From NCBI RefSeq assembly GCF_900182695.1, contig NZ_FXTK01000006.1, positions 62,001-126,000 of the forward strand: a stretch of DNA of 64,000 bases, in the 5' to 3' direction. This document shows positions 8,191 to 32,499 of the stretch, one piece after another. How positions within the stretch are numbered: the first letter of the stretch is position 1; every line of letters starts with the position of its first letter. The notes beneath the pieces were generated by a model that made no database searches, had not been told where the DNA came from, and worked only from the letters and a program-made list of their open reading frames with translations. Origin of the DNA: Paracoccus laeviglucosivorans (GTDB lineage Bacteria; Pseudomonadota; Alphaproteobacteria; Rhodobacterales; Rhodobacteraceae). Position numbers and translations under genes: made by a program.

Positions 8191-8282
8191 GAAATTCGTC
8201 GCCGCCGGGAATAGCCAAGCCTCGTCGTCCGTAACCCTTTTGCAGCCGCGAAGTGCTGCCCAGAAAGGGATGGAAAAGGACG

Positions 8283-8573
<291 letters not shown>

Positions 8574-10702: not shown

Positions 10703-10921
10703 TTACTTGAAGCGGTAATTGATCCGCCCCTTGGTCAGGTCATAGGTGTTCATTTCCACCTGCACCTTGTCGCCTGCCAGAACGCGGATGCGGTTCTTGC
10801 GCATCTTTCCTGCCATATGTGCGATGATCTCATGGCCGTTTTCAAGCTCGACCCGGAATGTCGCATTGGGCAGGAGTTCCTTCACGACGCCGGGAAATTC
10901 GAGCATTTCTTCCTTGGCCAT
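10703..10921 (-). CDS. infA: Translation initiation factor IF-1
   Basis: A 72-residue S1/OB-fold protein, [20 protein letters not shown] to the end [10 protein letters not shown], which matches the universal IF-1 length and sequence. IF-1 binds the ribosomal A-site during initiation. It leads the infA-maf-rng-yacG string on the minus strand. The upstream gap 10922-11072 (151 bases) should hold its promoter, but I see no convincing hexamers. Confidence 0.97.
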
Positions 10922-11072: not shown

Positions 11073-12191
11073 TCAGCCATGCGACCGGGCCTGTTCAGGT
11101 GGGGCGTGACGGGTGGCCTGTCCTGCATCAGGTGCGCTTCGGAAGGCGTCGGGCTGATCCAGATCCGCTATCGGCACGGCGTCGGTCGGCGTGGCTTTGG
11201 GCTCGGCACTGGCCCTAAGCCGGATGGCGTGCATCCCTTCTGCCTCACCCAGACGGCCACGGGCCAGCAACTGGCCGGCGGTCGTTTCGATCCGCGCATC
11301 GTCCAGTGCGTTCTGTGGAAGCGGGATCACCGCACCGGGCACAAGGCCGCGCAGGGTCCGCAGGCTCAGCGTGCGGCGGCACAGCACCCCCACGACCCGG
11401 ACAGGGGCCTGCTGCATCGCGATTGCCAGCGTTGGTGCGGGTGGCGACTGCTGCGGCGTTTCGGCGGTGATCTGCATCTGGCCGGAGGCGGGCCTGGTCT
11501 TGGCCAGATGCGTCGCGGGCAGCGCCAGCAGGATCAAGCCGTCGCGCTGACCGCCGCCGCCGATGCGGAATTTCAGCACCAACCGCGTCATTTCGACGTC
11601 ATCCAGCATCAGCCCAAGCGGGCGGGGATCGTCCAGATATGTCGCATAACGGAACTGCCCAAAGTCCGGCATGTCCGGTCTGCCGCCCAGTTCCCGCGTC
11701 AGCTCAGCCAGAAATCCGTTCACAAGATCGGCGGTGATCGCGGCATCGGTCCGCGTCGCGCGCCGTGGCACGGGCGGGCGCGAGGTGACACGGCCAAGCG
11801 CCTGCATCTCGATCAGCGAGGTCAGCAGCGCGGGGCAGATCGCCATCACCCCCAGCATGTCCCGCCCGCCTTCCAACACGGCCAGCAGGGCGCGTTCGGG
11901 CAGCAATTCGGACAGTTCCGACAGGCTGACCGGGCCAAATTCGGCCTTTTCGACAAAGACGGGCAATCGATGCAGCCGTTCTGCGGCGCGCCCCAGCGCG
12001 GTCGCGGCGGCGCGTTCAGTGCTGACATGTGCCGCATCGCGAAGCGCCAGCGCGGTCTGCAACGCGGGGCCGCGCAGTTTTTCGCGTTGGGCGATCATAC
12101 GGCGCAGGACGGGGGCACCAATAGCCGGGCTTTCCGAATTCACGCTGTCCATATCAATATCCGAATCGTCGTTACCCCCAAGGGACAGCAT
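11073..12191 (-). CDS. Orphan FliM/FliN-type (SpoA domain) protein
   Basis: A 372-residue protein resembling a flagellar motor switch FliM. The middle region (about 100-230) has a FliM/CheC-like feel (LVNGFLAELTRELGG, LMLDDVEMTRLVLKF). A SpoA domain follows at about 265-335, with VRVVGVLCRRTLSLRTLRGL, VIPLP and ARGRLG-type motifs; the tail is disordered. No other flagellar, chemotaxis or type III secretion gene is in the window. It is the last gene of a six-gene signalling operon, 24 bases after the transporter-kinase. FliM proteins elsewhere bind CheY~P, so an output or scaffold role for this operon's phospho-signal is conceivable but unproven. The start lacks a clear ribosome site; ATG 12152 is an alternative. 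Confidence 0.7.
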   Translation of the reverse strand: MLSLGGNDDSDIDMDSVNSESPAIGAPVLRRMIAQREKLRGPALQTALALRDAAHVSTERAAATALGRAAERLHRLPVFVEKAEFGPVSLSELSELLPERALLAVLEGGRDMLGVMAICPALLTSLIEMQALGRVTSRPPVPRRATRTDAAITADLVNGFLAELTRELGGRPDMPDFGQFRYATYLDDPRPLGLMLDDVEMTRLVLKFRIGGGGQRDGLILLALPATHLAKTRPASGQMQITAETPQQSPPAPTLAIAMQQAPVRVVGVLCRRTLSLRTLRGLVPGAVIPLPQNALDDARIETTAGQLLARGRLGEAEGMHAIRLRASAEPKATPTDAVPIADLDQPDAFRSAPDAGQATRHAPPEQARSHG

Positions 12192-12215
12192 CGCAACGAG
12201 TGGTTTCCAAAAGGT

Positions 12216-14891
12216 TTACCCGGAAACGGCCCCGGCATTTTCCCGATCGGTCATTCCCGGCGGACGCGCGGGCAGCGTGATGCGGAATGCCGCGCCGCCC
12301 TGTCCGGGCAGATAGACGATCGTTCCGCCCAGAAATTGCATGATCTCGCGGCAGATCGCCAGGCCAAGCCCCGCGCCGCCTGCCCGCGAAGGATCGTCCA
12401 GCCGTGCGAATTTTTCGAATATCAGGGCGCGATTTGCAGGCGCGATGCCCGTGCCGTTGTCGCCGATGTCGATTTCGGTCGTGCCGTCCGGGCGGCGGCG
12501 GGTCTGGATGCGGATCTCGGGTTCGGGCGCGTCGCAATATTTGCGGGCATTGGCCAGAACGTTCAGCAGCACCTGCAGCAGCCGGTCGGCGTCGGTGATC
12601 AGCATCAGCTGTTCGCCCGGAATGTCACGGCTTAGCGTGAACCTGCGCCCGTCCGGGCCTGCAGGGGTCGAAAGCAGCGCGCGTTCGATCAGGTCATGCA
12701 GGTTCAGCACGCGGGGCAGCAGCTTGGCCTGACCCGATTCCAACACGGCAAGGTCCAGAATATCCTCGATCAGGCGGGTCATGCGGCGGGTTTCGTCATG
12801 GATGATCGCGGCAAAGCGGGTGCGGTCGTCGCGACCCAGCTGCGGATCCATCAAAATTTCGGAAAACGCCCGGATCGAGGTCATGGGCGTGCGCAATTCG
12901 TGGCTGATCTGGCCCAGAAAGGCGTCCTTCTGCGCGGAAAGCGCGGTCAGCTTGTCATTGGCCTCTTGCAGCTTGCGGGCAGAGCGGGCCAGTTCCTCGG
13001 TCGCGGTTTCAAGGCGGATATTGTCGGCGCGGGCCTGACTGGCCTCGCCCGCGACCTCCATAAGGTCGGCCACGGTCACGCCGCCGCGCCCGGTCACGCG
13101 ACCCATCAGGGCGGCAGCGGTCGCAGCGCCCACGGTCCCGGCGATCTGACGCTCGAACTCGGACAGGAAACGCGGGGTCATATCCGGCAGATAGCCCGAT
13201 TTGCCTTGTTCAAGCGTGGCGGCGCGAAACAGCGAAAGCGCCCGGTCGCTGCCCCAAAGCCTGCCTCCCAGCGTCAAAAGCGCCTCGGCCCTGTTGCCGC
13301 CCGCCGCATCGCGGGGCGAGCGGTCGGGGGCGATGGCGTGGACAAAGGACAGGGCTTGCAACCGTTCGACCGGGTTCGGGAAATCGAACAGCGATACAAG
13401 CGTCAGCACGGCCATGTTCAGCCCCAGCGCCAGCAGAACCGCGCCCGCAAAGGGGTCGATCCCGTCCGGCATGGGCGGCGCGCCGATCAACCCCAGCGAG
13501 GGCAGGAAGATCAGCGAAAACCACACCGCGGCCCCCAGCGCGATCCCGGCCATTGCGCCCCTGCGCGTCGCGCCGCGCCAGCACAGCCCGGCCACCATTG
13601 CGGGCAAGACCTGCGCCATGCCGGAAAACGCGACGATCCCCATGACCGCAAGCGCCGAGGTGCCGCCCGACATCTGGTGATAGGCCCAGCCGCCGCCGAT
13701 AATGGCAAGGATCGCCAGCCGTCTGGCGTTCAGCATCATGGCGCGCAGATCCTCGCGTCCTGCGCCGGGCAGGGGACGGGCATGAAAGCCGCCGCGCAGC
13801 CAAAGCCACACAGGCACCAGCCAATGGTTCGCCATCATGGTCGAAACGGCGATGGCGCTGACCACAACCATCGACATGGCCGAGGAAAAGCCGCCGATAA
13901 AGGCCAGCCCTGCCAGCGCGTCCTGTCCCTGCGACAGCGGCAGCTCCAGAACGTAAAGATCGGGATTGGCGCTTGCGGGCATCATGTCGCGCCCGACCAC
14001 GGCGATGGGCAGCACCAGAAAGGTCATCACGAACAGGTAAAGCGGGAATGCCCAGCCCGCGTGGCGCAGGCGGTCGTCATCGCTTGCCTCGACCACCATG
14101 ACCTGAAACATGCGCGGCAGCACGATGACGGCCGCGCCCGACAGGGTGATCAGAACGGCCCAGCGGTCGGGCTTGATGATCCAGCCCGCGCCTTCGGGGG
14201 ATGCGGCAATGCGGTCGATGCGGGCCAGCACGTCGCCCGGCCCGTCCGCCAGTCCCCACAGGACAAAGCAGCCGACGGCGACAAAGGCCAGCAGCTTGAC
14301 CACCGCCTCAAGCGCGATGGCCATGACGACGCCGTGGTGGCGTTCGTCGGCGGCCAGATTGCGCGTGCCGAACAGGATGGTGAACGCCGCCAGCCCCAGC
14401 CCCGTCCAAAGCGCGATGCCGCCGGGCACGACGCGGCCATCGGTGGCAAATGCCGACAGAGCCATATGCACGGATTGCAATTGCAGCGCGATATAGGGTG
14501 TCACCGCCACCACGGCGATCAATGTGACCAGCGCCGCCAGTCCCGCCGATTTGCCGAAGCGGCTAGAGATGAGGTCCGCGATCGAGGTCACGCGATGCAT
14601 CCGTGCCACCCGCACCAGATGCCGCAGACCCCACCATGCGCCCGCAAAGACGATGCCGGGGCCAAGATAGATGGTCATGAACTCCAGCCCGGACCGCGTG
14701 GCATAGCCGACCGCGCCGTAAAACGTCCATGCCGAGCAATAGACCGACAGCGACAGCGTGTAGACCAGCGGGCTGTCCATCCAGCGCCAGCGGCCCGCCG
14801 CGGCCGCGCGGTCTGCGGCATGGGCCAAAAGGAACATGCCCGCGACATAGATGATGCCCGCCGCGCCCAGCGTCTCAGGCGTCATCGTCAT
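12216..14891 (-). CDS. Sensor histidine kinase fused to a sodium:solute symporter-like domain (CbrA/CrbS type)
   Basis: An 891-residue inner-membrane protein. Residues 1 to about 520 are a 12-13 helix SSS-family domain. Then comes a STAC-like linker (FERQIAGTVGAATAAALMGRV), a coiled segment (RKLQEANDKLTALSAQ) and a HisKA domain with phospho-acceptor His near residue 664 (QISHELRTP). The HATPase domain shows NVLANARKYC, DNGTGIA and GAGLGLAICRE. CbrA and CrbS kinases have this layout and respond to amino-acid or acetate state. No receiver domain is fused; the NarL-like regulator four genes upstream is a possible partner. It overlaps the small membrane protein gene by 17 bases. The transported or sensed solute is unknown. 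Confidence 0.88.
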   Translation of the reverse strand: MTMTPETLGAAGIIYVAGMFLLAHAADRAAAAGRWRWMDSPLVYTLSLSVYCSAWTFYGAVGYATRSGLEFMTIYLGPGIVFAGAWWGLRHLVRVARMHRVTSIADLISSRFGKSAGLAALVTLIAVVAVTPYIALQLQSVHMALSAFATDGRVVPGGIALWTGLGLAAFTILFGTRNLAADERHHGVVMAIALEAVVKLLAFVAVGCFVLWGLADGPGDVLARIDRIAASPEGAGWIIKPDRWAVLITLSGAAVIVLPRMFQVMVVEASDDDRLRHAGWAFPLYLFVMTFLVLPIAVVGRDMMPASANPDLYVLELPLSQGQDALAGLAFIGGFSSAMSMVVVSAIAVSTMMANHWLVPVWLWLRGGFHARPLPGAGREDLRAMMLNARRLAILAIIGGGWAYHQMSGGTSALAVMGIVAFSGMAQVLPAMVAGLCWRGATRRGAMAGIALGAAVWFSLIFLPSLGLIGAPPMPDGIDPFAGAVLLALGLNMAVLTLVSLFDFPNPVERLQALSFVHAIAPDRSPRDAAGGNRAEALLTLGGRLWGSDRALSLFRAATLEQGKSGYLPDMTPRFLSEFERQIAGTVGAATAAALMGRVTGRGGVTVADLMEVAGEASQARADNIRLETATEELARSARKLQEANDKLTALSAQKDAFLGQISHELRTPMTSIRAFSEILMDPQLGRDDRTRFAAIIHDETRRMTRLIEDILDLAVLESGQAKLLPRVLNLHDLIERALLSTPAGPDGRRFTLSRDIPGEQLMLITDADRLLQVLLNVLANARKYCDAPEPEIRIQTRRRPDGTTEIDIGDNGTGIAPANRALIFEKFARLDDPSRAGGAGLGLAICREIMQFLGGTIVYLPGQGGAAFRITLPARPPGMTDRENAGAVSG

Positions 14892-15135
14892 CCTCCGGCG
14901 CGTCTTCCGACCAGCCGATGGCGCGATGCAGCAGCGCGGTCGCCAGAATGGTCAGGCTCCAGCCGCAGGCCAGCCAAATCGTTCCGGCGGCAAAGCTGAA
15001 ACGGGCGGGCAACCAGATCGGCGGCAGCAGCACCAGCAGCGCAAAGATGACGGGGACCAGCCGCGTCGCCTCGATCATGCGGCGGCGGCGATATGCGGTG
15101 CGGCCCAGAAACAGGCGACGGCTGCGCGGTCTCAT
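14875..15135 (-). CDS. Small two-helix membrane protein in the signalling operon
   Basis: An 86-residue protein with a very basic N-terminus (RPRSRRLFLGRTAYRRRR), two predicted transmembrane helices (about 24-42 and 48-68) and an acidic end (SEDAPEDDDDA). Its gene overlaps the upstream regulator by four bases and the SSS-kinase by 17, so co-expression is likely. SSS transporters such as ActP often have a small two-helix partner (YjcH or DUF4212 types) encoded just upstream. This gene sits in that position, but I cannot confirm membership from sequence. Confidence 0.7.
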   Translation of the reverse strand: MRPRSRRLFLGRTAYRRRRMIEATRLVPVIFALLVLLPPIWLPARFSFAAGTIWLACGWSLTILATALLHRAIGWSEDAPEDDDDA

Positions 15136-16427
15136 GCCGGGCCAAGAATCGAGGGTTCGTGACGGGCAGGGCAGGCCGGACGCGGGCAGATGCGGCAGGC
15201 CGGACCGACCGCCAAAGGCGTGCGGTCATGGCCACCACCTGCGGGCAACAGCAGCATCTGCGCGCGGCTAAGGGGCGGGCCGTCAAAGCCCATGGGCAGC
15301 AGCCTTTCGGCCACGGCCCATGCCAGAAACCGCCCGCCGCCCGGCGTTTCGATCAGCCGCACCACCGGCAGCTGAGGTTGGGCCAGCGCCTCGAACAGCG
15401 GCCAAAGCGCGCAGCCTTCACCGGGGCGCGGCAGTTCGAACCCACCCGGCGCATGGCGAAACAGCGTGGCGCCCGAACCGTCGCAGATGATCAGCCCGGC
15501 ATTCGCCCATGGACCGGGGCGCAGCACGCCCAGACGGCGCAGCACCAGATCCAGCGGACGACCGATCCGCACGGCCAGCGCCGCGGGGTCGAAGCCGTCG
15601 AAAGAACCGGCGGCGCTGGCCAGTTCCGCATCGGGCAGCATCGCCCGGTCGCGGGCTTGCGCCGTCAGCAAATCCTGCGCCAGAGCACGCGCCGCATCCG
15701 ATGCCAGACCGTCGGGCTGGGGTTGACCTGCGGCGATCCACGCCTCGACTTCCTCTTGCGGCGACATGGGCACGGCGTCGTCTTCGAACGTGTCCAGATA
15801 TGCGACCAGCGATTGCGCGGTGCGGGCAAGACGCTGGCTGTCACTGTCCAGATTGGCGTGGAAACGTTCGCGCCATTCGGTCTCGATATCCGGCGTTTCC
15901 GACAGGATCGAGGCGGTCGAACGCACGGCGGTTACAGCTGACTGGACTTCGTGCAACGTAGCCAGCAGATAGGGGTCGCGCGTCATGCGGTCTGACAGCG
16001 CGATCAGCCGCCGCTCCAGTGCATCGGCCCGACGGACCGAGGCGGACAGCGCCGTGGCCCAGCCCGGAAACCGTGCGGCAAATTCCGCAATCTGGTCCAG
16101 CTCGATGATCAGCGAATGGTCCTGTGCCAGCGCCGCCGCCTCTCGCAGGCCCGAGATCAGCGCCTCCTCGCGGTCCGAGGCAAGCTCGGTCGCGTCGATT
16201 TCCAGCGCCTCGGCCAGCCGCGCCAGCAGCGCCTCGCCCACGGGGCGGCGGTTGTGCTCGATCAGGTTCAGATAAGCGGCCGAGATTTCGGCCCTCCGCG
16301 CCACCTCGGTCTGGCGACAACCCAGCGAAAGCCTGCGTTCGCGGATGCGCGTGCCGATCAGCGGCCTTTTGGCCTGAGGTCGGGCTGCGGCGCGTCCGGG
16401 GGTGGGATTTTGCGGCGGGCGCGGCAT
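15132..16427 (-). CDS. XRE-family regulator, short-chain acyl-CoA regulator type (DUF2083-like)
   Basis: A 431-residue DNA-binding protein. The helix-turn-helix lies at about residues 25-80 (RIRERRLSLGCRQTEVARRA, then SAAYLNLIEHNRRPV). The long C-terminal region ends in a cysteine cluster, GPACRICPRPACPARHEP, like the end of DUF2083 regulators such as RamB, PccR and MccR, which control acetate/propionate (glyoxylate, methylcitrate, propionyl-CoA) pathways. Ligand binding and target genes are inferred from that family only. It starts three bases after the NarL-like regulator ends and overlaps the small membrane gene by four bases. Confidence 0.8.
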   Translation of the reverse strand: MPRPPQNPTPGRAAARPQAKRPLIGTRIRERRLSLGCRQTEVARRAEISAAYLNLIEHNRRPVGEALLARLAEALEIDATELASDREEALISGLREAAALAQDHSLIIELDQIAEFAARFPGWATALSASVRRADALERRLIALSDRMTRDPYLLATLHEVQSAVTAVRSTASILSETPDIETEWRERFHANLDSDSQRLARTAQSLVAYLDTFEDDAVPMSPQEEVEAWIAAGQPQPDGLASDAARALAQDLLTAQARDRAMLPDAELASAAGSFDGFDPAALAVRIGRPLDLVLRRLGVLRPGPWANAGLIICDGSGATLFRHAPGGFELPRPGEGCALWPLFEALAQPQLPVVRLIETPGGGRFLAWAVAERLLPMGFDGPPLSRAQMLLLPAGGGHDRTPLAVGPACRICPRPACPARHEPSILGPA

Positions 16428-16430
16428 GGG

Positions 16431-17093
16431 TCAGACCCGGTCTCCGGTCTCATCCAGATGCCGGATCGCCTTGACGACCAGATCGGCGAAGCTGTTGGCA
16501 CCCAGCTTATCCTTCAGCGTCTGGCTGACATTCGACACGGTCTTATAGCTGATGCGGGCGCGTTCGGCGATTTCGCGGTAAGCCAGCCCTTCGGCAATGG
16601 CGCGCAGAATGTCCAGTTCGCGCGGGGTCAGGCGGGGACGGGCCGTGCCGCCGGGACGTTCCAGCAGCGCGATCTTGCGGGCAAGATCGGCGGGCACGTA
16701 ATCGCCGCCCGCAGCCACCTGTTCCAGCGCGTCGCAAATCTGGTCCGAAGGCGCGTCCTTCATGATGATGCCATTGCAGCCGGCTTGCAGCGCGCGGCGC
16801 GCGATGATCGGGCTTCGATGCATGGTGAATACCAGCATGGGTTGCGCCGCCCCTGCCGCCCGCAGGCGTTCGATCAGCCGCACCCCGGCCAGCTTGGAAT
16901 CGCCCATGGTCAGATCGACGACGATGGCGTCGGGCGCTTCCCTGCGCCATGCCTGAAAGCCCTGTGACGGGGTCGAGGCGGCGATGACCTGACAATCCAG
17001 CCGCCCGCGGGTGATGCGGTCCCAGCCCTCGGCCACCACGGGATGATCGTCGATGATCAGGACGCGCAGGGTTTCGGTCGATGTCTGGGTCAT
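16431..17093 (-). CDS. NarL/LuxR-type response regulator
   Basis: A 220-residue two-domain regulator. The receiver has the acidic pair DDH near residue 15, the phospho-acceptor Asp in IVVDLTM near 60 and the conserved Lys in MKDA. The C-terminal GerE/LuxR helix-turn-helix is LTPRELDILRAIAEGLAYRE followed by SYKTVSNVSQTLKDKLG. It overlaps the kinase gene by four bases (ATGA), so the NarX-like kinase is the likely main partner. CrbR/ErdR regulators of acetate use belong to the same class, which makes the SSS-kinase downstream a second candidate partner. Confidence 0.92.
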   Translation of the reverse strand: MTQTSTETLRVLIIDDHPVVAEGWDRITRGRLDCQVIAASTPSQGFQAWRREAPDAIVVDLTMGDSKLAGVRLIERLRAAGAAQPMLVFTMHRSPIIARRALQAGCNGIIMKDAPSDQICDALEQVAAGGDYVPADLARKIALLERPGGTARPRLTPRELDILRAIAEGLAYREIAERARISYKTVSNVSQTLKDKLGANSFADLVVKAIRHLDETGDRV

Positions 17094-18466
17094 GGCGCGC
17101 CTTGGTTCATCGGGATGCGGAATTCGGTAACGGTGCGTTCATCGCGGCGTTCGGGGGCCAGCCATGTCGCGCCAAGCGCCGCGGCACGGTCGCGCATCCC
17201 CGTCTGGCCCATGCCGCGCCGCTGCGAGACGGCGGCACCCACGCCGTCATCGGTCACGCGGGCGACCAGTTCGGACCCCGCCCGCAGTTCCACGCCGATC
17301 TGCGCGGGGGCCGCGTGACGCAACGCGTTCAGCACGCTTTCACGCACAAAGCGATAGATGGCGATCTGCCCTGCCTCATCGGGGTCGGGCAGGTCATCGT
17401 CGGCAGCGAAACGAAAGGCGGTGTTGGGCGCGAGGTCTTCGAATTCGATCAGCAGTTCATGCAGCATCTCGGGCAGGGACGCGCCGTCCGCAGGTCCAAG
17501 GCGCAGGTCGTCAATCGCCGCCCGCGCGCTTTTGCGGATCGCATCCGAGTGACGAGAGATTGCGCCCAGCGTCTCGGCCAGTTCGGGATCGGTCTTGTGG
17601 CGCGTGGCCTGACCCACGGCTGCGTGCAAAGCGAAAAGCTGCGGGCCGATTTCGTCATGCAGGTCGCTGGCGATGCGGGCGCGCTCGGCCTCGGCCAATG
17701 TCATCATGCGGGCCTGAAGGCGGCGGTTTTCGGCCCGTTCCTGCGCCAGATGCGCGGCAAGGGCGTTCACGCCTTCGGTCAGATCGTTCAGCTCGGTCAG
17801 GCCGGTCAGAGGCGCGCGCTGTTCCAGATTGCCTGCCCGCATCTGATCAAGCGCCGCACCCAAAAGGCCCAAACGCCGCAAGACCAGCCCCGTCACGGCC
17901 ATCGTCACACCGATTGCGACCAGCGCCGTGACCAGCAAAAGCGGCAGCAGCACACGCAGGTCGCGCCACACCTCGGCGATTTCATCCGACGGCTCGGTGC
18001 GGATTTCCAAGACGCCAAGCACGTTGGGATAATGCGTCACCGGGATCAGATCGCGCTGCGGTTCGGGGCGCAACAGGGCGGCGAACCAGTCGGGCACCTT
18101 GTCCCGTGGTGTCGCAAGGTCAGGCAGGGGGACGGGCTTGCCCTGCACATCGCGCAGCTCGGCCGTGACATGGCGCTGGCTGCGAATATCGGCGGCGATC
18201 ATCGCGGCCTCGGCCATCATGTCCTTGCGTCCGAACGAGGTGGGCAGGCGCAGCGTCGCCGCCGCATTGGCCAGCCGAAAGGCGGATTCGGTTTCCTGCC
18301 GGACCGAATCCCGCGCATTCCAGATCACCACGGTCACGGTAATGGCGAACATCACGATCCAGACCAAGGCCGAGCCGCCAAGCGCGATCCCCGACAGGGC
18401 CATGCCGCGTCGCCGCCCGACAGGCTGCGCCTTCGCCATCGTGCCGATCTGGCCCGTTGCGTCCAT
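17090..18466 (-). CDS. NarX-type membrane sensor histidine kinase
   Basis: A 458-residue kinase. One transmembrane helix lies near residues 24-46, a periplasmic sensor region of about 130 residues follows, and a second helix (LLPLLLVTALVAIGVTMAV) leads into a HAMP segment. The HisKA_3 phospho-acceptor motif is ERARIASDLHDEIGPQL and the HATPase ends in RVTDDGVGA and GQTGMRDRAAALG. ATG 18466 is preferred to the open frame beginning 18535 because GGGGG precedes it within five bases and the longer form adds an unlikely N-terminus. It is the promoter-proximal gene of the six-gene signalling operon. The sensory ligand is unknown. Confidence 0.88.
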   Translation of the reverse strand: MDATGQIGTMAKAQPVGRRRGMALSGIALGGSALVWIVMFAITVTVVIWNARDSVRQETESAFRLANAAATLRLPTSFGRKDMMAEAAMIAADIRSQRHVTAELRDVQGKPVPLPDLATPRDKVPDWFAALLRPEPQRDLIPVTHYPNVLGVLEIRTEPSDEIAEVWRDLRVLLPLLLVTALVAIGVTMAVTGLVLRRLGLLGAALDQMRAGNLEQRAPLTGLTELNDLTEGVNALAAHLAQERAENRRLQARMMTLAEAERARIASDLHDEIGPQLFALHAAVGQATRHKTDPELAETLGAISRHSDAIRKSARAAIDDLRLGPADGASLPEMLHELLIEFEDLAPNTAFRFAADDDLPDPDEAGQIAIYRFVRESVLNALRHAAPAQIGVELRAGSELVARVTDDGVGAAVSQRRGMGQTGMRDRAAALGATWLAPERRDERTVTEFRIPMNQGAP

Positions 18467-18544: not shown

Positions 18545-21500
18545 TCAAGTTTGCGCGACGGTGGGTTTCTGGTCAGGACGGCGCAATGCGCGGCGCACCA
18601 GCACGAAGAACAACGGCACGAACAGGATGCCCAGCACCGTGGCAGACACCGTGCCGCCCAGCACTGTCGCGCCAATGGTGTTGCGCCCGTTCGAACCCGC
18701 CCCCGATGACAGCACCAGCGGCAGCACCCCCAGCGAGAACGCGACCGAGGTCATCATGATCGGGCGGAACCGCTGGCGTGCCGCCTCGACCACCGCCTCA
18801 TACAATGGTTTGCCGTGTTGTTCGGCCTGTTCGCGGGCGAATTCGACGATCAGGATGGCATTCTTGCCCGTCAGGCCGATCACGGTCAGCAGGCCGACCT
18901 GAAAGAACACGCCATTGTCGAACTTGCCCAGCCACGCGCCGACCAGCGCGCCAAGCACCCCGATGGGCATGGCCAGCATGACGGCGAAGGGGATCGACCA
19001 GCTTTCGTAAAGCGCCGCCAGACACAGGAACACCACGGCCAGCGACAGCGAATATAGCAGCGTGGTCTGGTTTCCGGCCTGCTGCTCCTCCAGCGACAGG
19101 CCGGTCCATGCCACGTCGAAGCCGTCGGGCAGTTGGCCCGCGATCTCCTCGATTGCGGCCATGCCTTCGCCGGATGAGATGACGGGGATCGGGTTGCCCT
19201 GTATCTGCATCGCGGGCACGCCGTTATAGCGGTCCAGCCCCTGCGGACCAAAGGTCCATCGCCCCTCGGCAAAGTTCGAAAAGGGGACCAACCCGCCCGA
19301 GCTGTTCCTGACCCGCCATTTGTCGATGTCCGTGGGTTGCGCACGCGAGTTCGGCTCACCCTGCACATAGACCTTTTTGATGCGGCCCCGGTCAACGAAG
19401 TCGTTCACATAGGTTCCCGCCCATGCCACGGACAACAGGCTGCCCACATCGGTGGCCGACACGCCCATGGCACCCGCCTTGCGCCAGTCGATGTCCAGAT
19501 TGTATTGCGACGCATCCTCCAACCCGTTGGGTCGGGCCTGCGCGATGCGCCCGTCCTGCGCAGCCATGCCCAGAAGCTGATTGCGCGCGTCAAGCAATTG
19601 TTCATGCGTCTGGCCGGATCGGGCCTGCAGATAGAAATCGAAGCCCGAGACGTTGCCAAGCTCGATTACCGAAGGCGGCACGATGGGAAAGACCATCGCA
19701 TCGCGGATCTGGCTGAAGGCGCCGAATGCCCGGCCCGCCACCGCCTGCACGTTCTGATCGGCGTTCGGCCTGTCGGCCCAGTCCTTCATTCGCACAAAGG
19801 CGATGCCCATGTTCTGGCCCTGACCGGCAAAGCTGAAGCCGGTGACGCCGAACATGCTGTCCACATTCGCGGATTCCTGTTCGGCGAAATAATGCTGGAT
19901 CTGTTCGATCACCGCCTCGGTCCGTTCGGTCGTGGCCCCGGTGGGGCCTTGGACCAGCACGAACATGATGCCCTGATCTTCGTCCGGCAGGAAACCCGTG
20001 GGGGTGCGCAGGAACAGGAAAACCATCGCCGCGCCAAGCGCCAGATAGACCAGCATCATCCGCAAAGGCCGCCGGATGATCCAGTTCACCCACGAACTGT
20101 AGCCATGCATCGTGCGGTCGAATCCGCGGTTGAACAGCCCGAAAAAGCCGCGTGTCTTGTGGCCGTGTTCGTTGCGCAGAAGCGTCGCACACAGCGCGGG
20201 CGTCAGCGTCAGCGCCACCACAACCGACAGGCCCATGGCCGATGCGATGGTGATCGCGAACTGCTTGTAGATCACCCCGGTCGAGCCGCCAAAGAACGCC
20301 ATCGGCACGAACACCGCCGACAGGACCAGCGCGATGCCGACCAGCGCCCCGGTGATCTGACCCATGGATTTGCGGGTCGCCTCGCGCGGTTCAAGGTCTT
20401 CCTCCTCCATGATCCGCTCGACGTTTTCGACAACGACGATGGCGTCATCGACCAGCAACCCGATGGCCAGCACCATGGCCAGCATGGTCAGCGTGTTGAT
20501 GGTGAATCCCAGCGCGGCAAGGATGCCGAAGGTGCCCAGAATGACGACCGGGACCGCCAGCGTGGGGATCAGCGTCGCGCGCCAGTTCTGCAGGAACAGC
20601 AGCATGACGAAGAAGACCAGCACGATCGCCTCGACCAGCGTTTTCACCACCTCCTCAATCGAGATCAGGACGAAAGGCGTGGTGTCAAAGGGGATGACGT
20701 AACTGACGCCTTCGGGAAAGAACTTGGCGAATTCTTCCATCCGCGCCTTGACCCGTTCGGCGGTGTCCAGCGCGTTCGCGCCCGAGGCAAGGCTGATCGC
20801 CAGACCCGAGGCGGGGTTGCCGTTGAACTTGGCGCTGGTCGCGTAATCCTCGGCCCCGATTTCGACGCGGGCCACGTCCTTGAGCAGGATCAGACCGCCA
20901 TCGGGTTCGGCACGCAGGACGATCTGTTCGAAATCCTCGGGCGTGGAAAGCAGCGATTGTGCAGTGATCGTGGCGTTCAGCATCTGGCCCTGCGGCGCAG
21001 GTTCGCTGCCGAAAGACCCCGCCGAGATCTGCGCGTTTTCCGCCGAAACCGCGCTGACCACATCGCCCGGCGTCAATTCGTAGGCCGCCAGTTTCGACGG
21101 GTCCAGCCAGATGCGCATGGCATATTGCGCACCGAATATCTGGACCGAGCCCACGCCTTCGACCCGGCTAAGATCGTTCACGAGGTTCGAAATCATGTAG
21201 TCGGCAAGATCGACCTCCTCCAGCTTTCCACCTTCGGAAATCAGGCCGATCACCATCAGAAAACCCTCGGCCGATTTCTCGACCGTGACGCCCTGACGCT
21301 GCACGGGTTCGGGCAAAAGCGACGTCGCCTGCGCCAGCTTGTTCTGGACCTGCACCTGCGCGATGTCGGCATCCGTGCCCGTCTCGAATGTCAGGGTGGT
21401 GCTGGACGTGCCTGCCGAGCTGGAGCTTGAGTTGAAATAGCGCAGACCGTCCAAACCCGTCATCTGCTGTTCGATCACCTGCGTGACCGTGTTCGCGATC

Positions 21501-21667
21501 GTATCCGCAGACGCGCCCGGATAAGTGGCGCGGATCGTGACCGAAGGCGGCGCAATCTGGGGATACTGCGCGACGGGCAGGGTAAAGATCGACAGCAGCC
21601 CGATCCCCATGATCAGGATCGAGATAACCCAGGCAAAGACCGGACGGTCGATGAAAAAGCGCGCCAT
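18545..21667 (-). CDS. RND multidrug efflux permease (AcrB/HAE1 family)
   Basis: A 1040-residue inner-membrane proton-drug antiporter of typical length. It starts MARFFIDRPVFAWVISI, the classic first helix of the family. The proton relay aspartates are in GLLVDDAIVVVEN near residue 408, and two large periplasmic domains follow TM1 and TM7. It is expected to act as a trimer with the adaptor encoded 34 bases upstream (21702-23039). No TolC-type outer-membrane gene and no adjacent repressor are present, so the pump must use a distant channel. Substrates are not predictable. Confidence 0.95.
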   Translation of the reverse strand: MARFFIDRPVFAWVISILIMGIGLLSIFTLPVAQYPQIAPPSVTIRATYPGASADTIANTVTQVIEQQMTGLDGLRYFNSSSSSAGTSSTTLTFETGTDADIAQVQVQNKLAQATSLLPEPVQRQGVTVEKSAEGFLMVIGLISEGGKLEEVDLADYMISNLVNDLSRVEGVGSVQIFGAQYAMRIWLDPSKLAAYELTPGDVVSAVSAENAQISAGSFGSEPAPQGQMLNATITAQSLLSTPEDFEQIVLRAEPDGGLILLKDVARVEIGAEDYATSAKFNGNPASGLAISLASGANALDTAERVKARMEEFAKFFPEGVSYVIPFDTTPFVLISIEEVVKTLVEAIVLVFFVMLLFLQNWRATLIPTLAVPVVILGTFGILAALGFTINTLTMLAMVLAIGLLVDDAIVVVENVERIMEEEDLEPREATRKSMGQITGALVGIALVLSAVFVPMAFFGGSTGVIYKQFAITIASAMGLSVVVALTLTPALCATLLRNEHGHKTRGFFGLFNRGFDRTMHGYSSWVNWIIRRPLRMMLVYLALGAAMVFLFLRTPTGFLPDEDQGIMFVLVQGPTGATTERTEAVIEQIQHYFAEQESANVDSMFGVTGFSFAGQGQNMGIAFVRMKDWADRPNADQNVQAVAGRAFGAFSQIRDAMVFPIVPPSVIELGNVSGFDFYLQARSGQTHEQLLDARNQLLGMAAQDGRIAQARPNGLEDASQYNLDIDWRKAGAMGVSATDVGSLLSVAWAGTYVNDFVDRGRIKKVYVQGEPNSRAQPTDIDKWRVRNSSGGLVPFSNFAEGRWTFGPQGLDRYNGVPAMQIQGNPIPVISSGEGMAAIEEIAGQLPDGFDVAWTGLSLEEQQAGNQTTLLYSLSLAVVFLCLAALYESWSIPFAVMLAMPIGVLGALVGAWLGKFDNGVFFQVGLLTVIGLTGKNAILIVEFAREQAEQHGKPLYEAVVEAARQRFRPIMMTSVAFSLGVLPLVLSSGAGSNGRNTIGATVLGGTVSATVLGILFVPLFFVLVRRALRRPDQKPTVAQT

Positions 21668-21701
21668 TATAGGCTCCTGTAGGTATTACCTCGAAACGGG
21701 A

Positions 21702-23039
21702 TTAACCGTCCGAGCCTGTCGTGCCTTCGGTTTGCTGCGGGGCTGCGCCACCTTCTGCGGGGGCTGCGGCTTCGGGGGCGGCCTCGCTCGTTGGGGCTGC
21801 CTCGCCTGGCTGGGCCGGTTGTGCCTGGCCTTCCTGCTGAGGCGCTTCGCCTTGCGGCGGGCTGTCCGGGGCCGCACCTTCGGTGGGCGGGGCACCGGCC
21901 TGACGCTCCTCGACATTGACGGGGGCGCCGGGGGCGATGAACTGCACACCCTCGACGATCAGGCGGTCGCCGTCGTTCAGGCCCTTGCTGACCACCCAGT
22001 CATTGCCAAGATCCTGCAATACGGTCAGTTCGCGGCTTTCGACCTGATTTTGCGCATTCACCACCATGGCCACGGGCAGGCCGCGGCGGTCGCGGCTGAC
22101 ACCTTCCTGCGGGGCAAGGATGACGTTGCGCGCCGTGGCCTGCTGCACCACCGCCTGCACATACATGCCGGGCAGCAGAATGCGTTCGGGATTGGCGAAT
22201 GACAGGCGCAGCGTCACGACGCCGGTGGTTTCGTTGACGTAAGGCTCGGCTGCGGTCAGCGTGCCTTTTTCGGGATATTCGGTGCCGTCGGCCAGACGCA
22301 GGGTAACGGTCTGGCCGGGATGTTCGCCGTCTTGCGCGGCGTTTTGCGCGGCCATGTCGCGCCGCCAGCGGATCAGTTCCGCCGCCGATTGCGTCACATC
22401 GACATGCACCGGGTCAAGCGTGCGGATCACGGCCAGCGGATTGGCCTGACTGGCGGTGACCAGCGCGCCCTGGCTGGTCTGCGCAAGGCCGATCTCGCCA
22501 TCCAGTTCGGCGCGGATTGTGGTGCGCTCAAGCTCGATCCGGGCGGACAGAAGCTGTGCCTCGGCCACTTTCACCGCGGCTTCGGCGGCGTCGCGCGTGG
22601 CGATGGCGGTGTCCGAGGTGCTTTCGCTGGTCACGCGCCGGTCGCGCAGCGCGCCCGCGCGCTCGGCCTCGCGCCGGGCGTTGTCGGCCGTGGCGCGGGC
22701 TTGGGCCACGGCCGCCTCGGCTTGTGCGACGGCCGCCTCATAGGTGGTCTGGTCGATGCGGAACAGCGGATCGCCGCGCTTGACCTGCCGCCCTTCGTCG
22801 AACATGCGCTCGGTGACGATGCCATTGACCTGCGGGCGCACCTCGGCCTCGGCTGAGGCAGTGACGCGACCGGGCAGGGTGGTCGTCAGCGGCACGTCTT
22901 GCGCGTGCAGGGTGACGACCGTGACCGTGGGGGGCGGCATTTCGCCCCCCGGCGCCTGCGCCCATGCGGGTGCGCAGGCCAGCCCGGCGGCATGGGCCAA
23001 AAGGAACGTGACGGTAAACCGGCGCACAAGCGCTGACAT
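21702..23039 (-). CDS. RND efflux periplasmic adaptor (AcrA/MexA family)
   Basis: A 445-residue membrane fusion protein. A signal peptide (MSALVRRFTVTFLLAHAAG to APAWA) is followed by the barrel-sandwich segment VTASAEAEVRPQVNGIVTER, a long alpha-hairpin rich in Ala/Glu (about 95-165), and beta-barrel domains. The last ~60 residues are a Pro/Ala/Glu/Gln-rich tail, unusual for the family and probably disordered. ATG 23039 follows CGGAG at good spacing; ATG 23057 in frame would lengthen the signal region. It is co-directional with the permease and is probably co-transcribed with it. Confidence 0.93.
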   Translation of the reverse strand: MSALVRRFTVTFLLAHAAGLACAPAWAQAPGGEMPPPTVTVVTLHAQDVPLTTTLPGRVTASAEAEVRPQVNGIVTERMFDEGRQVKRGDPLFRIDQTTYEAAVAQAEAAVAQARATADNARREAERAGALRDRRVTSESTSDTAIATRDAAEAAVKVAEAQLLSARIELERTTIRAELDGEIGLAQTSQGALVTASQANPLAVIRTLDPVHVDVTQSAAELIRWRRDMAAQNAAQDGEHPGQTVTLRLADGTEYPEKGTLTAAEPYVNETTGVVTLRLSFANPERILLPGMYVQAVVQQATARNVILAPQEGVSRDRRGLPVAMVVNAQNQVESRELTVLQDLGNDWVVSKGLNDGDRLIVEGVQFIAPGAPVNVEERQAGAPPTEGAAPDSPPQGEAPQQEGQAQPAQPGEAAPTSEAAPEAAAPAEGGAAPQQTEGTTGSDG

Positions 23040-23085
23040 GATCGGGCTCCGGGGCATGTTCTGACTTTGTGCCTATAACCCACGG

Positions 23086-32435: not shown

Positions 32436-32483
32436 AATTGCTCCGTTAGATCACGCCGTCACGCCAGGAAGCCGTTGTGACGG
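32436..32483 (-). ncRNA. SAM/SAH-type riboswitch upstream of metK
   Basis: On the minus strand the leader has a 6-bp stem CGTCAC (32482-32477) with GTGACG (32462-32457). Its loop is AACGGCTTCCTGGC, the conserved loop I recognise from the SAM/SAH riboswitch found before metK in Rhodobacterales. After a short linker comes TAACGGAGCA; GGAG is the metK ribosome site and can pair with TTCC of the loop to form the pseudoknot. The element lies wholly within 67 bases between lnt and metK, which agrees with the small size of this class. Control is expected at translation initiation. Confidence 0.9.
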
Positions 32484-32499
32484 TCGGATCAGCGATAGA

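Follow-up and report, generated by a model that had tools for sequence, protein, structure and literature searches.

What is a gene for a FliM-like protein doing at the end of a sensory operon? The question is raised by a 64,000-nucleotide stretch of Paracoccus laeviglucosivorans (assembly GCF_900182695.1, contig NZ_FXTK01000006.1, positions 62,001 to 126,000 of the forward strand), here called the window, in which six minus-strand open reading frames (ORFs), all of them present, lie at 11073-18466. We found that the array probably holds two neighbouring functions, a nutrient-sensing core and, behind it, a genuine fliM gene. The core, which consists of a ScfR-like XRE regulator, a single-domain receiver, a small membrane protein and a CbrA-like transporter-kinase, is conserved in Rhodobacteraceae. 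The features of the window's array are as follows.

17090..18466, minus strand: sensor histidine kinase, NarX-type, with LapD_MoxY_N periplasmic, HAMP, HisKA_3 and HATPase domains (Pfam)
16431..17093, minus strand: NarL/LuxR-type response regulator, Response_reg and GerE (Pfam); 4-nt overlap with the histidine kinase gene
15132..16427, minus strand: XRE regulator, ScfR-like, with helix-turn-helix (HTH), middle helical region, C-terminal ScfRs domain and four conserved cysteines (Pfam HTH_3 and ScfRs); 3-nt gap
15789..15980, minus strand: hairpin resembling a dimerization and histidine phosphotransfer (DHp) domain in the XRE regulator, residues ~150-213, with His159 (hhalign, AlphaFold2 helices)
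14875..15135, minus strand: 86-aa small membrane protein, CbrX-like in position; 4-nt overlap with the XRE gene; membrane nature read from the sequence
12216..14891, minus strand: CbrA-like SLC5-STAC transporter-kinase, start ATG at 14891 or 14885 (PDB 10ED; HisKA/HATPase)
12199..12218, minus strand: predicted CtrA-type box (TTAA-N7-TTAA-like) upstream of fliM, overlapping the kinase stop codon (motif search)
11073..12191, minus strand: very probable fliM, flagellar motor switch gene (FliM-like protein P0006; SpoA domain, FliM fold, co-occurrence with fliG); 24-nt gap

A preliminary description of the locus had reported six minus-strand genes with overlaps or short gaps, and this was borne out, with junctions of -4, +3, -4, -17 and +24 nt, the fourth being -17 if the kinase starts at ATG 14891 and -11 if it starts at ATG 14885. 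Its proposal of a single transcription unit is safest for the first five genes only, because the sixth carries its own conserved promoter-like box and would receive read-through at most. The DHp-like region and a lost receiver, both treated below, go beyond that description, in which the small membrane gene was counted and left unnamed.

The sensory core is conserved in Rhodobacteraceae

P0006 and its matches in other genomes are referred to as FLIM. When 149 Rhodobacteraceae genomes drawn from 148 genera were searched with P0006 at E <= 0.001, a match was found in 120. Regions cut at 20 kb were fetched for 80 of these (79 other genera and the congener G023); the genomes are related and the counts are not independent. 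The transporter-kinase was found in 72 of the 80 regions and was preceded by the receiver in all 72. FLIM lay directly behind it in 67, the small gene before it in 68 and the XRE gene beside it in 70. The preliminary description had named conservation of the gene order across relatives as a check on its reading, and XRE, receiver, kinase and FLIM were indeed together in 66 of the 72. The regions lacking a detected kinase (L034, L036, L040, L046, L068, L077, L110 and L113) and those with a kinase and no adjacent FLIM (L042, L064, L079, L085 and L112) were kept in the denominators. Of the 72 regions, 54 had a livK-like gene and 28 had acs, the typical order being acs and a branched-chain-type ABC transporter, divergently transcribed, then XRE, receiver, small gene, kinase and fliM. 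For acs, livK, livH, livM and the receiver, Pfam confirmed representative sequences; the remaining neighbours were named from sequence.

This gene order is far beyond chance, and the order of the core block is kept although both flanks differ between Paracoccus and other genera. Strong kinase matches (E < 1e-100, a threshold of our own choice) occurred in 133 of the 149 genomes. We also scanned a genome collection with the kinase alignment and took the best 80 of more than 587 confirmed stretches: FLIM was adjacent in 61 and XRE, receiver, kinase and FLIM were together in 50, several contigs being short. The top matches among these 80 were from Paracoccus, and Cereibacter johrii (L214) had the same five genes. 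A literature search on XRE/DHp, FliM-like/SpoA/CheY and SLC5-kinase/acs/Rhodobacteraceae, with most subscription journals outside its reach, returned no published description of this array.

The last gene behaves as a flagellar fliM

The C-terminal SpoA (FliMN_C) domain of P0006 scored 41.4 bits against a cut-off of 23.8 and was also present in 20 of 20 relatives scanned. An AlphaFold2 model (mean predicted local distance difference test (pLDDT) 78.6) was compared with known structures using Foldseek. The first seven matches were flagellar C-ring or motor chains over 272-292 columns, one of which, 8umd_C, is FliM; whole-chain TM-scores were 0.36-0.38 of the query with a root-mean-square deviation of 24-26, as expected of flexibly joined domains. 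FliM middle domains came next (TM-score of the target 0.60-0.69), followed by FliY, CheC and CheX, placing the protein among CheC-like folds. If P0006 is FliM it is a divergent one: the Pfam FliM model matched 1 of 20 relatives (E 0.017), and the NCBIfam fliM equivalog gave 26.5 bits against a cut-off of 219.6. P0006 and its relatives share a conserved VLRR-type N-terminal motif, which may correspond to the CheY-binding motif at the N-terminus of canonical FliM.

A SpoA search of the window's genome returned three proteins: a FliN-like protein beside FliF, FliL and FliP (the last over its cut-off), an SctQ-like protein (66 bits, under its cut-off) beside SctR, and P0006, which was thus the sole FliM candidate found by this search in a genome with one FliG. 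The SctQ-like gene, around 269711 of contig C2 (L002), with its SctR neighbour over the NCBIfam cut-off, marks a non-flagellar type III secretion cluster.

FliG was found in 133 of the 149 genomes, and FLIM tracked fliG more than it tracked the kinase. FliG and FLIM were both present in 119 genomes, FliG alone in 14, FLIM alone in 1 and neither in 15 (odds ratio 127); the corresponding counts for kinase and FLIM were 114, 19, 6 and 10 (odds ratio 10). Kinship is ignored in these tables, so that p-values from them cannot be read as probabilities. With five doubtful FLIM matches counted as absent, the tables became 114/19/1/15 (odds ratio 90) and 109/24/6/10 (odds ratio 7.6). Three of the five were weak or unlinked (G015, G093 and G146); the other two, G074 and G101 (loci L110 and L113), look like other flagellar FliM beside flagellar-looking genes; they were excluded when FLIM was aligned, the box analysed and adjacency counted, and kept in the 149-genome table. 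Furthermore, FLIM and FliG persist in Paracoccus genomes that lack a kinase ortholog (for example G155, G161, G168, G169, G181 and G184). The converse was seen among the 16 FliG-less family genomes, 11 of which have the kinase: in the ten loci read (all but that of G028), receiver, small gene and kinase were kept in 10 of 10 and FLIM was absent in nine, the exception being G058. At two such loci (L242 and L249) the contig ends ~0.9 kb behind the kinase; neither genome has any SpoA match. From the co-occurrence with fliG, the fold and the promoter-like box described next, we conclude that the last gene is very probably genuine flagellar fliM.

A CtrA-type box precedes fliM

A motif was built by expectation-maximization from 175 FLIM upstream regions of relatives, the window not being among them. 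It reads T[TA]AAC..TTT[CG][GT][TC]AACC, resembling the TTAA-N7-TTAA site of CtrA, with a log-likelihood of 1307 against 53 for shuffled regions. A score above 8 was reached in 93% of the 175 upstream regions, against 1% before the kinase gene and 3% in shuffled regions, the box here being scored on the regions from which it was built. In the window the box starts 27 bp before the fliM ATG and scores 26.7, the best site in the 64 kb (next best 17.8). Counting exact TTAA-N7-TTAA was too strict: the best match near the window's fliM has three mismatches, and the 175 regions gave 0 exact, 23 one-mismatch and 118 two-mismatch sites (shuffled 0, 3 and 22). Before the XRE genes the same count showed no excess (11 and 70 against 15 and 65 in shuffled regions, of 178). 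Within 10 kb of the genome's flagellar cluster the best matrix site (15.3) fell in the gap between divergent fliF and fliL, the promoter pair that shares a CtrA site in Rhodobacter sphaeroides (PMC6180460). The fliM gene thus has its own predicted CtrA-type box, which would act as a promoter.

Several observations weigh against assigning the gene to the flagellum in this way. Upstream of fliG the box scores poorly or is absent (at best -3 to 14.5 across 19 loci, with 7.5 for the window's genome), and its frequency before fliM carries the circularity just mentioned. G028 (86% complete) has FLIM without FliG, the sole such genome in the 149-genome table, and in G058, which gave no FliG match, there is a FLIM-like ORF. 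The 14 FliG genomes without a match to the window's FLIM include some that show another SpoA protein, of 320-333 aa, beside FliN. FLIM diverges fast, and single-sequence searches miss some members, as happened with G058 in the 149-genome search.

In R. sphaeroides both fliM and fliG lie outside the fla2 cluster and are activated by CtrA (review, PMC7277832), and that fliM would be the gene at our locus in Cereibacter (L214). A 2025 study of the commonest Rhodobacterales flagellum placed fliG and CP1 outside the cluster in Phaeobacter inhibens, FliM occurring in its accessible text only in a reference title (PMC12363192). We infer that the window's fliM belongs to this flagellum type; if so, the locus described here would place its fliM.

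The transporter-kinase and its small companion

In the large kinase, Pfam recognized HisKA and HATPase; it reported no symporter part in the window protein, and SSF in 1 of 12 members scanned. The transporter part became apparent by comparison with PDB 10ED, the SLC5-STAC structure of CbrXA, whose 606-aa chain holds SLC5 and STAC (PMC13022988). The kinase profile matched it over positions 4-611 (E 4.9e-90) and the window kinase alone over residues 36-514 (CbrA, E 2.2e-64). Both the SLC5 transporter domain and STAC are covered, the profile match reaching residue 589 of the chain and the single-sequence match ending at 509. By counting along the alignment, Lys197 of the kinase falls on Lys196 of CbrA. 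A PAS domain of the CbrA/CbrB type was absent from the Pfam lists of the window kinase and 12 members, and the array has no NtrC-type gene. The 86-aa protein matched no Pfam family over its cut-off. In Pseudomonas, the cbrX and cbrA genes overlap by 17 nt (PMC6591292); by position and overlap, the 86-aa protein may be called CbrX-like.

Second transporter-kinase copies, 40-43% identical and with their own receiver directly behind, were seen at L261, where they lie near acs, and in G203-G206, G159 and G195.

A putative kinase-like hairpin in the XRE regulator

The preliminary description had classed the XRE protein with the RamB/PccR/MccR regulators. This was upheld in the HTH, the C-terminal ScfRs domain and four cysteines, of which three form CX2CX4C; an IrrE-like (PF06114/DIII) middle domain was not found in the window protein at E <= 1, with all 7 families listed. 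Nor was PF06114 among the 25 of 52 families shown for 41 XRE relatives, in contrast to the genome's canonical ScfR paralog, which has the IrrE-like domain. The ScfRs score was weak, 45 bits against 228 for that paralog. The C-terminal part matched MtPrpR in the PDB only from about profile position 233 on (233-427, E 4.5e-28). Cysteines 339, 411, 414 and 419 were present in 171-173 of 174 distinct XRE rows (177 rows in some analyses), in the arrangement of the MtPrpR cluster (PMC6765138).

In place of the IrrE-like domain, the AlphaFold2 model (mean pLDDT 85) has helices at residues 152-177 and 183-213, with pLDDT blocks of 79-96, down to 65 at the end. Aligned by hhalign with the DHp region of the operon's own kinase, this hairpin gave Prob 95.5 and E 1.5e-8 over 59 columns, with His159 on His662 of the kinase. 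Twenty column-shuffled versions gave at most 6.0; the other controls gave 1.2 (STAC), 5.2 (HisKA_3 of the other kinase), 1.3 (coiled coil), 0.1 (transmembrane), 0.7 (ATPase), 0.5 (FliM) and 0.7 (HTH). Run at E < 0.01 on a 180-sequence file, a hidden Markov model of the kinase DHp found 159 of 177 XRE rows (158 of 174 distinct) and did not find either ScfR paralog; the reverse model, built from the XRE hairpin, found 121 of 121 kinases. His159 is histidine in 173 of the 174 distinct rows; among the 177 rows, Glu or Asp follows at +1 in 169 and Ser or Thr at +4 in 173. In addition, the NCBIfam CreC kinase model matched 33 of 42 XRE relatives (best E 9e-6). Three results speak against a kinase-derived hairpin: its 91-column profile found no kinase among PDB sequences at E <= 10, Pfam HisKA appeared in only 8 of 31 XRE segments (best 5e-4) and not in the window's, and none of the 50 Foldseek matches listed was a kinase. 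Weighing these results, we regard a kinase origin of the hairpin as likely. Phosphotransfer or docking through it is a good deal less certain and rather doubtful.

The residue at +3 of His159 is Gln in 15 of 15 distinct rows of the Paracoccus clade that gained the NarX/NarL-type pair, against Leu, Ile or Val in 159 of 159 others. Such a change would fit a hairpin that switched to a new partner ahead of the loss of the old receiver; as one event in one clade, it is only a hint. Pden_1785, an additional protein of the ScfR network that is clustered with a two-component system (PMC10370305), may be the gene of this XRE regulator.

Gain of a NarX/NarL-type pair and loss of the receiver in Paracoccus

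Within the genus, FLIM was found in 58 and FliG in 59 of 61 genomes. Besides L034, 40 genus loci were fetched. The transporter-kinase was present in 29 of them, with the receiver before it in 22; seven had XRE, kinase and FLIM without the receiver, as in the window, and 12 had the histidine kinase and response regulator, six retaining both the receiver and this pair. We built a kinase tree of 34 rows, leaving out loci whose longest kinase frame is <= 800 aa (such as L117). The window and the other pair-bearing loci in the tree formed one group of 14 (100/100) that included L114, which is without the pair, and a nested group of 8 including the window (98/95) comprised exactly the loci without the receiver. 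These groupings are most simply explained if the pair was acquired once, the receiver disappeared once and L114 later dropped the pair. The rewiring, a new pair gained and then the old receiver lost, can be traced within one genus.

A search with the histidine kinase in 60 congeners (E <= 1e-60) found a relative at >= 62% identity in 12, all at this locus; five further matches at 46-48% identity lie elsewhere, and G179 has a partial match (57%) at a distance of ~1 kb from its FLIM match. The HATPase_c score of the window's histidine kinase was slightly under the Pfam cut-off (24.7 against 26.4 bits). The best NCBIfam model for the response regulator was MctR, at 112.8 bits far below the cut-off of 300, and the NarX and NarL equivalogs scored 33.6 of 578 and 84.6 of 250 bits, leaving the pair outside both.

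The Asp motif of the operon receiver is kept in 183 of 189 rows. A transfer of this receiver to elsewhere in the window's genome was considered and rejected: the best match (L234) is a different receiver, because its orthologs also occur in congeners that keep the operon receiver. This protein, a lone single-domain receiver (L234:1492-1860, minus strand) behind a transporter-like gene, has orthologs at 73-89% identity in 14 of 15 congeners searched. Identity with Osp was likewise dropped, osp being presumably monocistronic elsewhere. At another locus, L130:3131-3526 (minus strand), a receiver-like ORF with an altered acidic pocket has stayed beside fliM after loss of the XRE, small and kinase genes.

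Flanks of the array and other features of the window

10703..10921, minus strand: infA, downstream boundary marker (sequence and translation)
18545..21667, minus strand: RND transporter, upstream boundary marker, 78-nt gap to the array (ORF, name read from the sequence)

In Paracoccus, infA follows fliM in 28 of 29 loci with the kinase, and among the 40 genus loci read, the window's clade alone has the RND transporter ahead of the array. The pump gene and that of its membrane fusion protein (18545-23057, minus strand; names from sequence) directly precede the array. Elsewhere in the window we noted a SAM/SAH riboswitch at 32439-32486 (minus strand) exceeding the Rfam gathering score, and a small ORF at 8253-8573 (plus strand) with a signal-peptide-like start and long Asp runs.

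Proposed mechanism and alternative explanations

In the model that we propose, the transporter-kinase, accompanied by the small membrane protein in a CbrX-like role, would bind or carry a small carbon compound and would pass phosphate to a receiver, which in most of the family is probably the single-domain receiver of the same operon. Since the window's sub-clade lost this receiver and gained the NarX/NarL-type pair, the acceptor there would have to be sought elsewhere or in the NarL-type regulator. As output, the model has the ScfR-like XRE regulator, whose C-terminal domain of Fe-S/acyl-CoA type may read the cell interior and whose kinase-like hairpin may be what the receiver reads; likely targets of this regulator are neighbouring genes, among them acs and those of the ABC transporter. 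We tentatively propose that the XRE factor took over a kinase DHp hairpin and that the receiver, phosphorylated by the transporter-kinase, docks on or phosphorylates His159, joining outside nutrient signals to inside acyl-CoA and Fe-S signals. If this speculative scheme holds, it would provide an example, open to experiment, of a receiver being read by a DNA-binding regulator via a kinase-like hairpin. FliM would serve as switch protein in the flagellum that Rhodobacteraceae inherit vertically; its gene would be expressed chiefly from a CtrA-type promoter of its own, and the position of the gene behind the core may add a read-through coupling of carbon status to the switch protein.

The preliminary description saw the FliM-like protein as part of the sensor, away from flagella. 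It would then be a repurposed non-flagellar reader of phosphorylated CheY, bound by the kinase-phosphorylated receiver. Linkage of XRE, receiver, kinase and FLIM in 66 of 72 regions fits this, as do the kinship of FliM-type folds with CheC, CheX and FliY and the altered receiver left beside fliM in L130. However, FLIM follows FliG much more than the kinase and stays where the kinase is missing, nine of the ten FliG-less genomes read keep receiver and kinase without FLIM at the locus, the window has FLIM and no operon receiver, and fliM has its own CtrA-type box. We dropped a non-flagellar sensor output, which now seems very improbable, on the FliG co-occurrence, the SpoA survey, the kinase-less genomes that keep FLIM and the FliG-less loci. 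If the genes instead stand together by historical accident, kept by lack of rearrangement and sharing no function, the separate box of fliM and its persistence where the other four genes are gone are readily understood; block order between differing flanks, gene overlaps of 4, 4 and 17 nt and a receiver with the kinase in 72 of 72 regions make this improbable.

A CrbS/CrbR-type acetate switch, in which the transporter-kinase phosphorylates the LuxR-type regulator at 16431-17093 and so activates acs, is unlikely, if somewhat less so. In its favour, CrbS too belongs to the SLC5-STAC kinases and CrbR is an activator of acs (PMC5715377); acs occurs in 28 of the 72 regions, and loss of the receiver leaves the operon with the NarL-type regulator as its sole response regulator. 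Against this, the LuxR-type regulator was acquired along with a HisKA_3 kinase of its own, and in a single Paracoccus clade; receiver and pair coexist in six of the 40 genus loci, and acs was not identified next to the window's array. Of the CrbS/CrbR-like layout put forward in the preliminary description, a conserved nutrient-type operon with transporter-kinase and ScfR-like regulator, and acs beside it in many relatives, is supported; the part played by the LuxR-type regulator is not. Nor was support found for its idea that two kinases share this regulator, since the transporter-kinase travels with its own single-domain receiver and the LuxR-type regulator is a later arrival, which may now also serve the transporter-kinase. 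The two-function reading rests on gene order, domain content, FliM fold, fliG co-occurrence, the conserved box and clade history, all computed here; ligand, phosphotransfer route, target genes, promoter activity and read-through are what we infer.

Comparison with known systems

The fliM of R. sphaeroides Fla2, for which the available part of the review mentions no sensory neighbours, likewise lies away from its flagellar cluster and belongs to a CtrA-activated class (PMC7277832). The operon receiver resembles Osp, the single-domain regulator of CckA, in being a single receiver domain tied to flagellar control, and differs from it in keeping the Asp motif.

The added pair has the HisKA_3 kinase and GerE-type regulator of NarX/NarL-type systems such as MctS/MctR and remains under the NCBIfam cut-offs; MoxY/MoxX is a further such system resembling it. 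With the ScfR regulators RamB, PccR and MccR (MtPrpR), the window's XRE protein shares HTH, ScfRs domain and four cluster-type cysteines; it differs in its weak ScfRs score and in having a DHp-like hairpin where no IrrE-like domain was found.

CrbS/CrbR (MxtR/ErdR) has in common with the array an SLC5-STAC kinase, acs nearby in relatives and a LuxR-type regulator, which in the array has its own kinase, is a late arrival and is not a dedicated partner. A further likeness is to CbrXA-CbrB of Pseudomonas: the kinases are homologous over SLC5 and STAC, Lys196 is kept and a small gene overlaps the kinase gene by 17 nt. The array differs in a kinase in which no PAS domain was found and in having no NtrC-type CbrB, the partner in relatives being a single receiver together with a ScfR-like XRE regulator.

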